Part shown: positions 4,900 to 32,295 of the stretch, in pieces
Layout: every line of letters starts with the position of its first letter
How positions within the stretch are numbered: the first letter of the stretch is position 1
Assembly: GCA_903901045.1 (NCBI GenBank)
Contig: CAIUPP010000133.1
Location: 1-36,711, forward strand
Length of the DNA stretch: 36,711 bases
Source: an uncultured Planctomycetota bacterium
GTDB taxonomy: Bacteria; Planctomycetota; Brocadiia; CAIUPP01
Reading direction: 5' to 3'
The notes under the pieces: generated by a model
The model's input: the letters and a program-made list of their open reading frames with translations, nothing else
What the model was told of the DNA's origin: nothing
Databases searched by the model: none
Program-made: the position numbers and the translations under genes

Positions 4900-4928
4900 A
4901 TAATACCAGTCACCCTAAAGCCTGTCAA
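4900..4928 (-). promoter_or_regulatory. Sigma-70 promoter for the STAS gene
   Basis: TTGACA (4928-4923), a 17-bp spacer, then TATTAT (4905-4900) on the minus strand. The leader to the ATG at 4828 is about 65 nt. It is back to back with the ricT promoter, the two -35 boxes only 11 bp apart. Confidence 0.85.
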
Positions 4929-11727: not shown

Positions 11728-12546
11728 TTAGATGTTAAACGCCAGATACCCGCCATCCACCGGCAGGGTAATGCCGGACACGAACCCCGCCGCCTGGTTC
11801 GACATGAGGAAGATCACCGCGCCGCAGAGCTCGTGCGCTTCGCCGAAGCGTCCGTACGGCGTGTGTGCGATGACGGCCTGCCCGCGCGCGGTGAGCGACC
11901 CGTCCGGGTTCAGCAGCAATGCGCGGTTCTGGTCGGCGATGAGGAACCCCGGCGCGATGGCGTTGACGCGAATGCCGAAGGGGGCCAGTTCTTTGGCCTG
12001 CGCCACGGTCTGATTCATCACCGCCGCCTTGGCTGCGCTGTACGCATAGACCCCGGACAGCGGGTTGTATGAGGACATGGAGGCGATGTTGATGACGCTG
12101 GCCTTGATTTTCTTCTCGATCCAGTACTTGGAGAAGTGCTTGATCGGAAGGATGCAGCCGGCGAGCAGGTTCAGTTTGAGGACGAATTCAACATCCTCCG
12201 CCTTGACCTCCTGGAGGGTGCTTTTGCCGCGGTTGCCTCCCGCGCCGTTGATCAGGATGTCCACCTGGCCGTACAGTTTGACTGATTTTTCGATCGCGGC
12301 CTTGATGGACTCTTCGTCCATGAGGTTCACCTGGACGGAGTTGACGCGCTCGTCATTCTTGATCGCCTTGCGGATCTTGGCGACCTTCTCGTCGAGCGCT
12401 TCCTGGCGGATGTCCCAGAGGATGACATTGGCGCCGGCCGCCGCGAGCGCTTCGCCCATCAGGCTGCACAGCACGCCGCCGCCGCCGGTCACAACCGCCG
12501 TGCGGCCTTCGAGAGAGAACATGTTCATCAGGTATGAATTACACAT
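11728..12546 (-). CDS. SDR-family oxidoreductase, sugar-acid type
   Basis: 272 residues, short-chain dehydrogenase/reductase. The NAD(P)-binding region is TAVVTGGGGVLCSLMGEAL (the glycine-rich motif departs from the usual TGxxxGxG), followed by DILINGAGGN. The catalytic Ser lies in VINIASMSSYNPLSG and Tyr-x-x-x-Lys in YAYSAAKAAV. The C-terminus ends in GITLPVDGGYLAF. Overall it is most like D-mannonate oxidoreductase (fructuronate reductase-like SDR) proteins, and with gnd upstream and a HAD gene downstream on the same strand a role in hexuronate or aldonate metabolism is plausible. GAGGAG lies about 7 bases before the ATG at 12546. Met7 or Met9 are alternative starts. Confidence 0.87.
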   Translation of the reverse strand: MCNSYLMNMFSLEGRTAVVTGGGGVLCSLMGEALAAAGANVILWDIRQEALDEKVAKIRKAIKNDERVNSVQVNLMDEESIKAAIEKSVKLYGQVDILINGAGGNRGKSTLQEVKAEDVEFVLKLNLLAGCILPIKHFSKYWIEKKIKASVINIASMSSYNPLSGVYAYSAAKAAVMNQTVAQAKELAPFGIRVNAIAPGFLIADQNRALLLNPDGSLTARGQAVIAHTPYGRFGEAHELCGAVIFLMSNQAAGFVSGITLPVDGGYLAFNI

Positions 12547-12560
12547 GCCGGGCTCCTCAT

Positions 12561-13022
12561 TAACGAATCAATGGCGAATGAAGAATAGCGAATTGCCAAT
12601 TGCGAATGTCACGCTTTTTCAAAGCCGCGCACTCTCGCGGTCTTGATGCTGCTGCCGAATATCTTGCTCAGTTCCTCGGCCTCCTTCAACAGTGGTTCCA
12701 CTCGTTCAGGAGCTACCAACTCGGCTCGATGAATAAAACGAAGCCAGAACCGCGCTTCCTTCACTTCCTTCCATACGACGCCCATCTTGTGAACAAAGTC
12801 GTCCCGTGATTCGGCTCCGCGGGCTTCCTCGTAGTTCGCGCCTGCGGATGTGGATGCTCTGAATAGCTGCTGGCCCACGTGGCGGCTGTGTACGTCTTTG
12901 CGCAGCGCCTTTGTCAACCTGAAGACGCGCGTGGCGAAGACCAGCATCCGTTCCGAGAGATCGTCACCGGGCGCCGTTCGCAATTCGCTATTGGCCATTC
13001 GCTATTCGCAATTCCTTCGTTA
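12561..13022. mobile_element. Putative single-gene cassette with 48-bp imperfect terminal inverted repeats
   Basis: Left arm 12561-12608 and right arm 12975-13022 align as inverted copies without gaps at 37 of 48 positions. Both begin TAACGAA from the outside and consist of GCGAATTGC/GCGAATAGC words. The unit abuts the gnd stop codon (13025-13023) on the right and stops just before the SDR ribosome binding site on the left. It contains one gene, whose stop codon abuts the left arm and whose start codon lies inside the right arm. No transposase is present. Mobility is inferred. Confidence 0.52.
12609..12998 (-). CDS. Four-helix-bundle protein (23S rRNA intervening-sequence/S23 type)
   Basis: 129 residues. 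It carries the family pattern: DLSERMLVFATRVFRLTKAL, then VGQQLFRASTSAGANYEEAR, then DFVHKMGVVWKEVKEARFWL and LLKEAEELSKIFGSSIKTAR. These proteins were first noticed inside intervening sequences of 23S rRNA genes and form homo-oligomeric helical bundles; their function is unresolved. Here there is no rRNA nearby. The first residues MANSELRT are encoded by the right inverted repeat of the cassette, so the true start could be later, although no better ribosome binding site exists. It lies in the gnd-SDR-HAD transcript direction. Confidence 0.85.
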   Translation of the reverse strand: MANSELRTAPGDDLSERMLVFATRVFRLTKALRKDVHSRHVGQQLFRASTSAGANYEEARGAESRDDFVHKMGVVWKEVKEARFWLRFIHRAELVAPERVEPLLKEAEELSKIFGSSIKTARVRGFEKA

Positions 13023-14474
13023 TCACACCGTATACGTCGACGCGCTGGTCGTGCCGCCATGTCCGGTCCAGTTCGTGTGGAACACCTCGCCGCGTTTCTT
13101 GTCGACGCGTTCGTAGGTGTGGGCGCCGAAGTAGTCGCGCTGCGCCTGGAGCAGGTTCGCGGGCAGGCGCTTGCAGCGATAGCCGTCGAAGAACGCCAGC
13201 GCGGAGCTCATCGTCGGCACCGGCACGCCGTACTTCGTGGCTTTGACCACCACGCTGCGCCAGGACTTGTCGGCCTTGAGGACGGCGTCGGCGAAGAACG
13301 GGTCGAGCAGCAGGTTGGTGAGGTCCGGCTTCCGGACGTACGCTTCCTTGATCTTCCCGAGGAACATGGAGCGGATGATGCAGCCGCCGCGCCACATCAG
13401 CGCGATCCCGCCGTAGTTCAGGTTCCATTTGTACGTCTTTGCCGCCGAGCGCATGAGCTGGAAGCCCTGCGCGTAGCTGATGATCTTGGAGGCGTAGAGA
13501 GCGCGGCGAAGGTCTTCGAGCATCGCCTGCTTGTCGCCGCGGATCTTCTTGGGCCGGCCCTTGAGCACCTTGGAGGCCGCCACGCGCTCTTCCTTGATCG
13601 CGGAGAGGCAGCGGGCGAAGACCGCTTCGCCGATCAGCGTCAGCGGCTGGCCTTCATCCAGAGCCGCCAGCACCGTCCACTTGCCCGTTCCCTTCTGCCC
13701 GGCGGTGTCGAGGATCAGGTCGACCACGGCCTGGCCCTGCTCATCCTTGTACGCGAGGATGTCGCGGGTGATCTCGATGAGGTAGGACTTCAACTCCGCC
13801 TCGTTCCAGGCCTTGAAGACCTCGTGCATCTCCTCGTTGGTCATTCCGAGGCCCTGCTTCATGATCTGGTAGACCTCGCAGATCATCTGCATGTCGCCAT
13901 ACTCGATGCCGTTGTGGACCATCTTGACGAAATGCCCCGCGCCGTTCTCACCCACCCACTCGCAGCAGGGCTCGCCTTCTTCGGTCTGAGCGCAGATTTT
14001 CTGGAAGATGTTCTTGACGTGCGGCCAGGCGGCGGGGCTGCCGCCGGGCATCATCGAGGGGCCCTTGAGCGCGCCCTCTTCGCCGCCGGAGACGCCGGTG
14101 CCGATGTAGAGCAGTCCCTTGCTTTCGACCAGCGCCGTGCGGCGGATGGTGTCCGGGAAGTGGCTGTTGCCGCCGTCGATGATGATGTCGCCCGGTTCGA
14201 GCAAGGGGATCAACTGATTGATGAAATCATCCACCGCCTCGCCCGCCTTGACCAGCATGATAACCTTGCGGGGGCGGTTCAGCGCCGCCACGAACTCCTG
14301 CAAGCTGTGGTAGCCGGCGATATTCTTCCCCTTGGCGCGACCATTCACGAACGCGTCCACCTTCTCGATGGTGCGGTTGAACACCGCCACGGAGAACCCC
14401 TTGCTCTCCATATTCAGCACCAGGTTCTCTCCCATCACCGCCAGGCCGATAAGGCCGACATCCTGCTTTGCCAT
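13023..14474 (-). CDS. gnd: 6-phosphogluconate dehydrogenase, decarboxylating
   Basis: 483 residues, full length for the long (dimeric) form. It converts 6-phosphogluconate to ribulose 5-phosphate with NADP+ in the pentose phosphate pathway. The Rossmann start is VGLIGLAVMGENL, followed by FNRT. Substrate and catalytic segments are IIIDGGNSHFPDT, GTGVSGGEEGALKGPSMMPG, KMVHNGIEYGDMQ and AGQKGTGKWT. The C-terminal swapped tail includes DYFGAHTYER and FHTNWTGHGG. The binding site GGAGAG is about 10 bases before the ATG, with a promoter at 14542-14570. The ribulose 5-phosphate produced is also the substrate of RibB and the precursor pool for KdsD, both in this window. Confidence 0.97.
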   Translation of the reverse strand: MAKQDVGLIGLAVMGENLVLNMESKGFSVAVFNRTIEKVDAFVNGRAKGKNIAGYHSLQEFVAALNRPRKVIMLVKAGEAVDDFINQLIPLLEPGDIIIDGGNSHFPDTIRRTALVESKGLLYIGTGVSGGEEGALKGPSMMPGGSPAAWPHVKNIFQKICAQTEEGEPCCEWVGENGAGHFVKMVHNGIEYGDMQMICEVYQIMKQGLGMTNEEMHEVFKAWNEAELKSYLIEITRDILAYKDEQGQAVVDLILDTAGQKGTGKWTVLAALDEGQPLTLIGEAVFARCLSAIKEERVAASKVLKGRPKKIRGDKQAMLEDLRRALYASKIISYAQGFQLMRSAAKTYKWNLNYGGIALMWRGGCIIRSMFLGKIKEAYVRKPDLTNLLLDPFFADAVLKADKSWRSVVVKATKYGVPVPTMSSALAFFDGYRCKRLPANLLQAQRDYFGAHTYERVDKKRGEVFHTNWTGHGGTTSASTYTV

Positions 14475-15972: not shown

Positions 15973-16836
15973 ATGAAAGCGCGCGTGGTGGCGATGGCGG
16001 TGATTGGCTTGTTCATCTCGGCGGCGATGGCGTTGGCGGCGTTCTGCCCGATCTGCTTCCAGGCGATCCCCGACGGCGAGAAATATTGCAGCCGCCACAA
16101 GCAGGAAATGGTTGCCAAGAGCATCTCCACCACCGATGAGGCCAAGGTCGTCGCCGGCCTCGATCAGGCCCGCGCACAGTACCGGCAGCAACTGGAAACG
16201 CTCAAGGCGTTCTATGAGCAGCGCGGCAATGCCGCCAATCTCAAGAAGGTCGAAGCCGAGATCAAGGATTACGACGCTGCGCGTCACGTGGCTTTCGTCA
16301 ACTGGGAAGATTCCATCCCCGCGCCCGAGGCGAAGGAGGCTAACGCCGACGCCGACAAGCTCCTGGCCGATGCTGATGCGATGAAGAAGGGGACCGGTCT
16401 GCTGGGCATCGTCAAGTCCAAGCGCATGGGAGAGGCGGCGGGGGTGTACCGCGAGATCCTCACGAAGTACCCCACCAGCACCGCCGTCGAGCCGGCCGCC
16501 TACGCGCTGGGTGATTACTATTCCAGCGGCGACGACAAGCACTATGCGCGCGCCGTGAAGTTCTATGAAATGTGCTATCTCTCCAATCCCGCCACCACGC
16601 GCGACGCGCTCATGCGCGCCGCTTCGGTGTGCGAGGATGACCTCGGTGACCGCGAGAACGCCGCCCGCTACTACTGGATGGTCGCCTACGGCAAGACGGC
16701 CGCTTCCGCCATCGACGGGAAGAAGGCCGAACTCCACTTGAAAGGTCTCCAGAAGGGCGGGTTCGGCGCTTCCTACAAGCTGGAGGAAAAGACCGAGGAG
16801 GCGAAGCCTCTGCCGCCCGTCGTGCCGCCGAAGTAA
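15973..16836 (+). CDS. Exported tetratricopeptide-like protein with zinc-finger-like N-terminus
   Basis: 287 residues. Residues 1-23 form a signal peptide (VVAMAVIGLFISAAMALAA). Just after it, CPICFQAIPDGEKYCSRH gives a C-x2-C...C-x2-H arrangement like a zinc-ribbon. A helical region follows with coiled-coil character (about 50-110), then repeated helix pairs AAGVYREILTKYPTSTAVEP, AYALGDYYSSGDDKHYARAV and KFYEMCYLSNPATTRDALMR, typical of TPR/outer-membrane assembly scaffolds. The end is proline-rich (LPPVVPPK). The role is unknown. The ATG at 15973 has AAGGAG six bases upstream. Confidence 0.72.
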   Translation: MKARVVAMAVIGLFISAAMALAAFCPICFQAIPDGEKYCSRHKQEMVAKSISTTDEAKVVAGLDQARAQYRQQLETLKAFYEQRGNAANLKKVEAEIKDYDAARHVAFVNWEDSIPAPEAKEANADADKLLADADAMKKGTGLLGIVKSKRMGEAAGVYREILTKYPTSTAVEPAAYALGDYYSSGDDKHYARAVKFYEMCYLSNPATTRDALMRAASVCEDDLGDRENAARYYWMVAYGKTAASAIDGKKAELHLKGLQKGGFGASYKLEEKTEEAKPLPPVVPPK

Positions 16837-16838
16837 CT

Positions 16839-16902
16839 CAATGGGCAATGGGGAATTGTCAATGGTCAATGAACATTGGCAATTGACCGTTGCCCATTGA
16901 CC
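16839..16902. repeat. Inverted microrepeat (CAATGGGCAATG words)
   Basis: Left arm 16839-16871 and right arm 16874-16902 consist of words such as CAATGG, CAATTG and GGTCAATG in opposite orientation, almost without a loop. It follows the TPR gene stop and precedes the por promoter, so it may double as a terminator-like hairpin. Confidence 0.7.
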
Positions 16903-32169: not shown

Positions 32170-32280
32170 ATCTCCTGATTACCCAGTCTCCCAATTTCCC
32201 AATCTCCCAGTTGCCGGCAGTTCGGAGATTGGGAGATTAGGAGATTGGGTAATTGGGCGATTAGGTGACAGGGTGATTGG
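32170..32280. repeat. Long inverted microrepeat after proS
   Basis: The left half (about 32170-32213) is built of words like CTCCCAATTTCCCAATCTCC. The right half (about 32224-32280) consists of GGAGATTGGGAGATTAGGAG-type words in the opposite sense. It is the same family as 30596-30653, with more word copies. Confidence 0.8.
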
Positions 32281-32295
32281 GTGAGAGGAGTTGGC

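Follow-up and report, generated by a model that had tools for sequence, protein, structure and literature searches.

The DNA between gnd and a downstream SDR-family gene carries what is, in our judgement, probably a mobile unit: an S23 (four-helix-bundle) gene set between inverted arrays of a 7-bp repeat and inserted in the sense direction. That the S23 protein recognises and spreads these arrays is an inference, for which there is no experiment. We read the unit as a general, non-ribosomal form of the S23-carrying intervening sequence of 23S rRNA genes, and units of this kind as mobile without a recognisable transposase; how they move is not shown. To our knowledge, the mobile origin suspected for rRNA intervening sequences remains unproven, S23 proteins have no known function although structures have been solved since 2006-07, and intergenic heptamer arrays are common with no known maker.

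Anatomy of the unit between gnd and the SDR gene

Within the window (the whole stretch of 36,711 nucleotides that was analysed), the unit is bounded by two arms that match without a gap at 37 of 48 positions (Table 1). Their local inverted-repeat score was 42, and none of 2000 dinucleotide-block shuffles came near it (maximum 25), which upholds the 48-bp arms described in an earlier note on this DNA. The limits given there, from the gnd stop codon to the SDR ribosome-binding site, also hold: the unit begins directly after the gnd stop, at 13022, and its other end lies a few bases short of the GAGGAG of the SDR gene. Equally, the stop codon of the S23 gene touches one arm and its first codons, eight of them, lie inside the other, as had been claimed. 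The S23, gnd and SDR genes are all read from the minus strand. The earlier note missed that each arm consists of tandem copies of a single 7-bp unit, ATTCGCN, in opposite directions in the two arms, and that further copies of the array are found all over the genome.

The termini of the unit read TAACGAA...TTCGTTA, and it is hence without the CAT...ATG ends of an IS231-type mobile insertion cassette (MIC). No target duplication was found at the window copy, the 10–12 bp type included, and IS-like outer ends were found neither here nor at the loci L116 and L119. A search with Rfam detected no rRNA in the window; the unit lies between two protein genes and not inside a 23S rRNA gene. The earlier note had also proposed an RNA hairpin that possibly acts on the transcript. 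The arms do pair in the predicted RNA of the unit. The fold of the whole unit was not exceptional (z -1.5), so unusual stability of the whole RNA was dropped, and action on the transcript is not shown.

Table 1. Features of the S23 unit and its neighbours in the window
Feature	Position	Strand	Remarks
5' arm (upstream of the S23 gene, gene's own strand)	12975..13022	-	GAATTGC GAATAGC GAATGGC CAATAGC GAATTGC GAA; outer end TAACGAAG
3' arm, inverted heptamer array	12561..12608	-	...CATTCGC AATTGGC AATTCGC TATTCTT CATTCGC...; outer end TTCGTTA
S23 / four-helix-bundle gene, 129 aa	12609..12998	-	PF05635, TIGR02436
gnd (6-phosphogluconate dehydrogenase), upstream context	13023..14474	-	co-directional
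SDR-family gene, downstream context	11728..12546	-	co-directional; adjoins gnd without an insert in G001

The cargo protein

The window protein is a member of PF05635 (E 2e-16, 60.5 bits, curated cut-off 33.8) and of TIGR02436, 'four helix bundle protein' (E 4e-23, 81.6 bits, cut-off 24). Its AlphaFold model has four helices (pLDDT 90), and Foldseek ranked the S23 structures 2RLD and 2GSC at the top (E 3e-6, TMt 0.89), so that the model has the four-helix-bundle fold. The identity of the cargo, which had been proposed from the letters alone, was thus borne out by both profiles, the model and the structure search. Next in rank came Avd, the accessory protein of diversity-generating retroelements (DGRs; 4DWL, TMq 0.70; 8UB7, TMq 0.67); the matches to this shared fold therefore comprise S23 structures and Avd, including a DGR reverse-transcriptase complex. 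The S23p of X. campestris is reported to be a homopentamer (PMC4990558).

A transposase-like active site was not recognisable in the 129-aa bundle. Neither a reverse transcriptase, sought by eye among the open reading frames without a reverse-transcriptase profile, nor a template/variable repeat was identified in the window. The feature had no match in a defence-system library and no DNA match in plasmids; two distant protein matches in phages both fell in unannotated faecal phage records.

Heptamer arrays in the genome of the window

The ATTCGC array was matched 101 times as 21-mers in the whole genome (47 forward and 54 reverse, overlapping matches within one array being counted apart), and the reversed control pattern was not matched there at all. 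The sister genus G001, of the same family and the closest genome compared, gave 0 matches against these 101. A search for the arm, with and without its cargo, had been suggested in the earlier note, and the arm is indeed repeated genome-wide, also without the gene: some ATTCGC arrays are paired in inverted orientation around a loop of some tens of bases that holds no gene. All six full-length S23 genes of this genome have inverted-repeat arms, with differing heptamers. S23 copies on another contig (C61) have AACTGA and GTAGAGT heptamers, and AACTGA gave 71 matches.

Several further arrays were observed. A single AACTGAN array, of the same heptamer as the AACTGA-framed S23 copy on C61, lies at 416–461 of the window, and a hairpin of a CAATGGN-type heptamer, of the same anatomy and with no gene inside, lies at 16836–16899. 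At 32182–32287 there is an inverted array pair with period 8 (CCCAATCT / GATTGGGA), so the array period is not always 7. The genome also has six Y1_Tnp genes, only one of which was seen near heptamer arrays; a RAYT-driven REPIN was accordingly rejected for the window copy. At L061 (3967–4959, contig C94 of the same genome) a Y1_Tnp (RAYT-like) gene stands between two heptamer arrays.

S23 genes are generally framed by heptamer arms

The anatomy was examined at 173 S23 loci, taken from the genome of the window and its relatives and from 80 named contigs, with two contigs in both sets. The named contigs belong to Planctomycetota, Cloacimonadota, Deltaproteobacteria-type bacteria, Nitrospinae, WOR-3, Bacteroidetes, Chloroflexi, Acidobacteriota, Armatimonadetes and archaea. 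Of the 173 S23 genes, 90.8% had inverted-repeat framing above every shuffle; among 142 control ORFs at these loci the figure was 5.6% (p 1e-46). How closely a protein resembled that of the window made no difference, with 88–94% framed in each identity band. Chance likeness of the arms is excluded by these control ORFs together with the shuffles.

Self-identity of the S23 arms was 0.66 at lag 7, 0.64 at lag 14, 0.60 at lag 21 and 0.53 at lag 28, against 0.25–0.30 in controls at those lags (0.28 at lag 7). The best lag was 7 or 14 in 141 of 145 arms, whose median length was 36 bp. The heptamers themselves are diverse, with 88 distinct consensus units among 139. A common form, approximately [GC]AANNNN when the upstream arm is read in the sense direction, is partly a matter of construction, since the rotation was chosen to place AA. 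A 23S motif scan was negative at every S23 locus examined, and no 23S location was thus found for the other S23 copies.

Three further observations were made. L007, L008 and L010 encode longer proteins (219–285 aa) with a partial PF05635 domain, and their flanking inverted repeats are above shuffles. At L374 (G045:C38), GAATATC-type heptamer arms surround a different, non-S23 palindromic insert. A group II intron domain lies at 4919–4993 of L204, an archaeal contig, close to an S23 locus.

Occupied and empty sites

The gnd-SDR junction was compared in a relative, as the earlier note had proposed. In G001 the two genes (85% and 83% identity) are adjacent, the spacer is unrelated and neither an S23 gene nor arms are present. 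Because G001 lacks both the unit at this place and ATTCGC arrays, occupation of the junction by the window unit is specific to its lineage, and vertical inheritance of the unit is excluded.

Elsewhere, S23 genes that are 90–98% identical and have the same heptamers and arms occur in unrelated flanks in different species; at L116, L118 and L119 the similarity stops at the heptamers. Empty sites in relatives were found for two loci, L128 and L116, while a search at L143 gave no clean answer. At the L128 site, G031 and G058 have the flanks (86–97% identity) without the S23 unit, and their spacers differ from a simple excision product. The L116 junction (family f7) has flanking genes 87–91% identical and a varied content: a plain 40-bp spacer in G032, which is empty, a full S23 unit in G051, a bare hairpin with the same heptamers as the full unit in G045, decayed S23 genes with other heptamers in G057 and G050, and another hairpin in G054. 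This series implies that the spot, from a stop codon to the next start, was filled several times independently; it resembles the place that the window unit takes between gnd and SDR. No target duplication was seen in the heptamer-only alignment at this junction. Two marks of a mobile element are thus present: one unit recurs at sites that are unrelated, and relatives have such sites empty. Comparison of genomes shows that the gene and its arms occur as a unit, that units occupy places which are vacant in relatives, and that the arms spread without the S23 gene as well.

Coupling of S23 type and heptamer

Within a family of 33 genomes, the heptamer pair of L128 had a median of 26 matches in the ten genomes with the L128 S23 type, as assigned from L128 locus matches, and of 2 in the rest (p 1.6e-5). 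The genomes are related and not phylogenetically independent, the counts take in the arms that belong to the S23 copies, and arrays may occur in genomes without that S23 type. Across 9996 non-syntenic pairs, more identical proteins had more similar heptamers, with a partial rho of 0.25 against a highest value of 0.13 in 300 GC-stratified null sets. The relation was weaker below 50% identity (0.12 vs null 0.11). The coupling shows that the S23 gene and its arms travel together; it suggests recognition of the arrays by S23 and is not proof of it.

Orientation in transcribed spacers

The upstream neighbour was co-directional for 127 of 141 S23 genes and for 64 of 92 control genes (p 1e-4), and for the downstream neighbour the difference from controls was small. 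The S23 unit thus lies mostly sense in transcribed spacers. rRNA intervening sequences are likewise sense-oriented in their transcript. Selection for read-through expression would lead one to expect the sense bias equally.

A group of units with IS231-like ends

Longer ends, CATAAGCGCTAACTTG and its complement (CAT...ATG), enclose the heptamer unit in one group of loci (L102-L129). Exact 11-bp duplications flank 8 of 20 copies, with a near match in 3% of controls, and the targets are GGG-N5-CCC-like. Many copies are internally deleted and keep the ends alone. In the IS231 subgroup of IS4, the ends start with CAT and the direct repeats are 10–12 bp (PMC2266710). The likeness to IS4/IS231 MICs was seen in L102-L129, with its CAT...ATG ends and 11-bp duplications; the window copy and heptamer-only copies such as L116/L119 are without such ends. 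These loci are best read as mobile insertion cassettes with the S23 unit inside, and their copies were probably moved by an IS4-type transposase. The 11-bp duplications cannot be credited to the heptamers or to S23, because they go with the IS231-like outer ends, and 11-bp target duplication as a general property of S23 units is withdrawn. Nine loci (L102, L105, L129, L302, L305, L307, L329, L334 and L335) were recorded as IS231-like cassettes with 11-bp duplications and GGG-N5-CCC-like targets; their contents are S23 units or deleted derivatives.

Comparison with known systems

The intervening sequence of Coxiella has an S23 ORF between complementary ends, its terminal inverted repeat being 28 bp long; GACAGAT heptamers, two or three in tandem, precede the S23 start codon, and the sequence is excised by RNase III (PMC4990558). 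Its heptamers were regarded by the authors as a local detail (PMC4990558). This rRNA insert has the same anatomy as units of the window type, heptamers included (PMC4990558), and an S23 gene within complementary ends is common to the 23S rRNA intervening sequences of Coxiella and Leptospira and to the window unit. The window unit differs in lying between protein genes and in having arms that are arrays, of a kind whose heptamer varies by locus and which also occurs without cargo. The proposal of the earlier note, that an insert of the 23S intervening-sequence type lives between protein genes with its own bundle protein, is supported by the framing, the empty sites and the Coxiella anatomy.

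REP/REPIN elements are GTAG-type palindromes, and their RAYT is a Y1 transposase. S23 units resemble the REP/REPIN-RAYT system in that short inverted repeats flank a small gene and many copies of the repeat in the genome have no cargo. They differ in that an S23 bundle stands in place of the Y1 transposase, and arrays of 7-bp period in place of the GTAG-type palindromes.

Arrays of the heptamer TAACTGA occur in Beggiatoaceae, Cyanobacteria and Bacteroidetes, with no maker described; in Beggiatoaceae they stand directly before start codons, and a regulatory role was proposed (PMC4679880). Like the S23 arms they are intergenic 7-bp direct arrays with a patchy spread, but inverted pairs are almost absent and S23 is unmentioned (PMC4679880). 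A paper on CRISPR-linked genes names the 23S IVP in a figure legend only. In open-licence PubMed Central, without preprints, we found no literature that links S23 genes generally with heptamer arrays.

Discussion

We infer that heptamer arrays are recognised by their own S23 protein, an Avd-like bundle from a family in which pentamers are known, and that this protein would drive their spread, gene-bearing copies being autonomous and bare arrays non-autonomous, much as RAYT stands to REP. Most speculatively, S23 may borrow an enzyme, a reverse transcriptase or another, to act on the hairpin once this is transcribed. The moving form could then be RNA or a single-strand hairpin copied by a borrowed polymerase, a speculation for which the Avd fold offers a hint. 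Action on a transcribed hairpin would explain both why the units lie in sense and why they are placed, harmlessly, after stop codons. Carried furthest, and offered only as a tentative idea that we would not ourselves call probable, S23 proteins would give specificity and mobility to a class of elements of their own, without a transposase, in bacteria and archaea; each S23 lineage would recognise its own 7-bp array and spread hairpins bounded by it through transcribed spacers, probably through an RNA intermediate; rRNA intervening sequences and scattered heptamer repeats would be special cases and relics of this class.

The main rival holds that ordinary transposases, IS4/IS231-like or of the Y1/RAYT type, move the hairpins, and that S23 is captured cargo, perhaps to its own benefit. 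It is a live rival because one group of loci has IS231-like ends and 11-bp duplications. There the CATAAGCGCTAACTTG ends, the duplications at 8 of 20 copies, the GGG-N5-CCC-like targets and the resemblance to IS231 (PMC2266710) all speak for it, as do the many internally deleted copies that retain the ends alone and the Y1_Tnp gene between heptamer arrays on C94. That gene is, however, the only one of six seen near such arrays, and neither the window copy nor L116/L119 yielded outer IS-like ends. A single enzyme family would moreover need to have chosen S23 together with many different heptamers in different phyla and in archaea, yet framing is almost never found around control genes. On balance we think this explanation unlikely, without setting it aside.

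Still less probable to us is that the arrays are regulatory: S23 or a host factor would bind them, with an effect on termination, RNase III processing or translation at gene junctions, S23 being autoregulated and mobility incidental. Their place in spacers downstream of co-directional genes and the pairing of the arms in predicted RNA would suit this, and so would the Beggiatoaceae TAACTGA arrays before start codons, for which regulation was proposed (PMC4679880). Against it, occupancy is unstable among close relatives, one junction has different heptamers in different species, and the counts run from 101 to 0 between sister genera. To an ordinary, vertically inherited gene whose flanks are alike by accident we give next to no credence: it has only the low complexity of AT-rich heptamers to recommend it, and is refuted by the shuffles, the control genes, the empty sites and the period-7 signal.

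On our preferred reading, that of a mobile unit made of an S23 gene and its heptamer arms, one anatomy ties together the function of S23, the origin of rRNA intervening sequences and the heptamer arrays without a maker. The L116 junction series (G032, G045, G051, G057 and G050) is a ready natural control set for presence and absence. The puzzle of S23 and the rRNA inserts becomes testable: the protein would bind its own heptamer, and bare arrays would spread only with S23.
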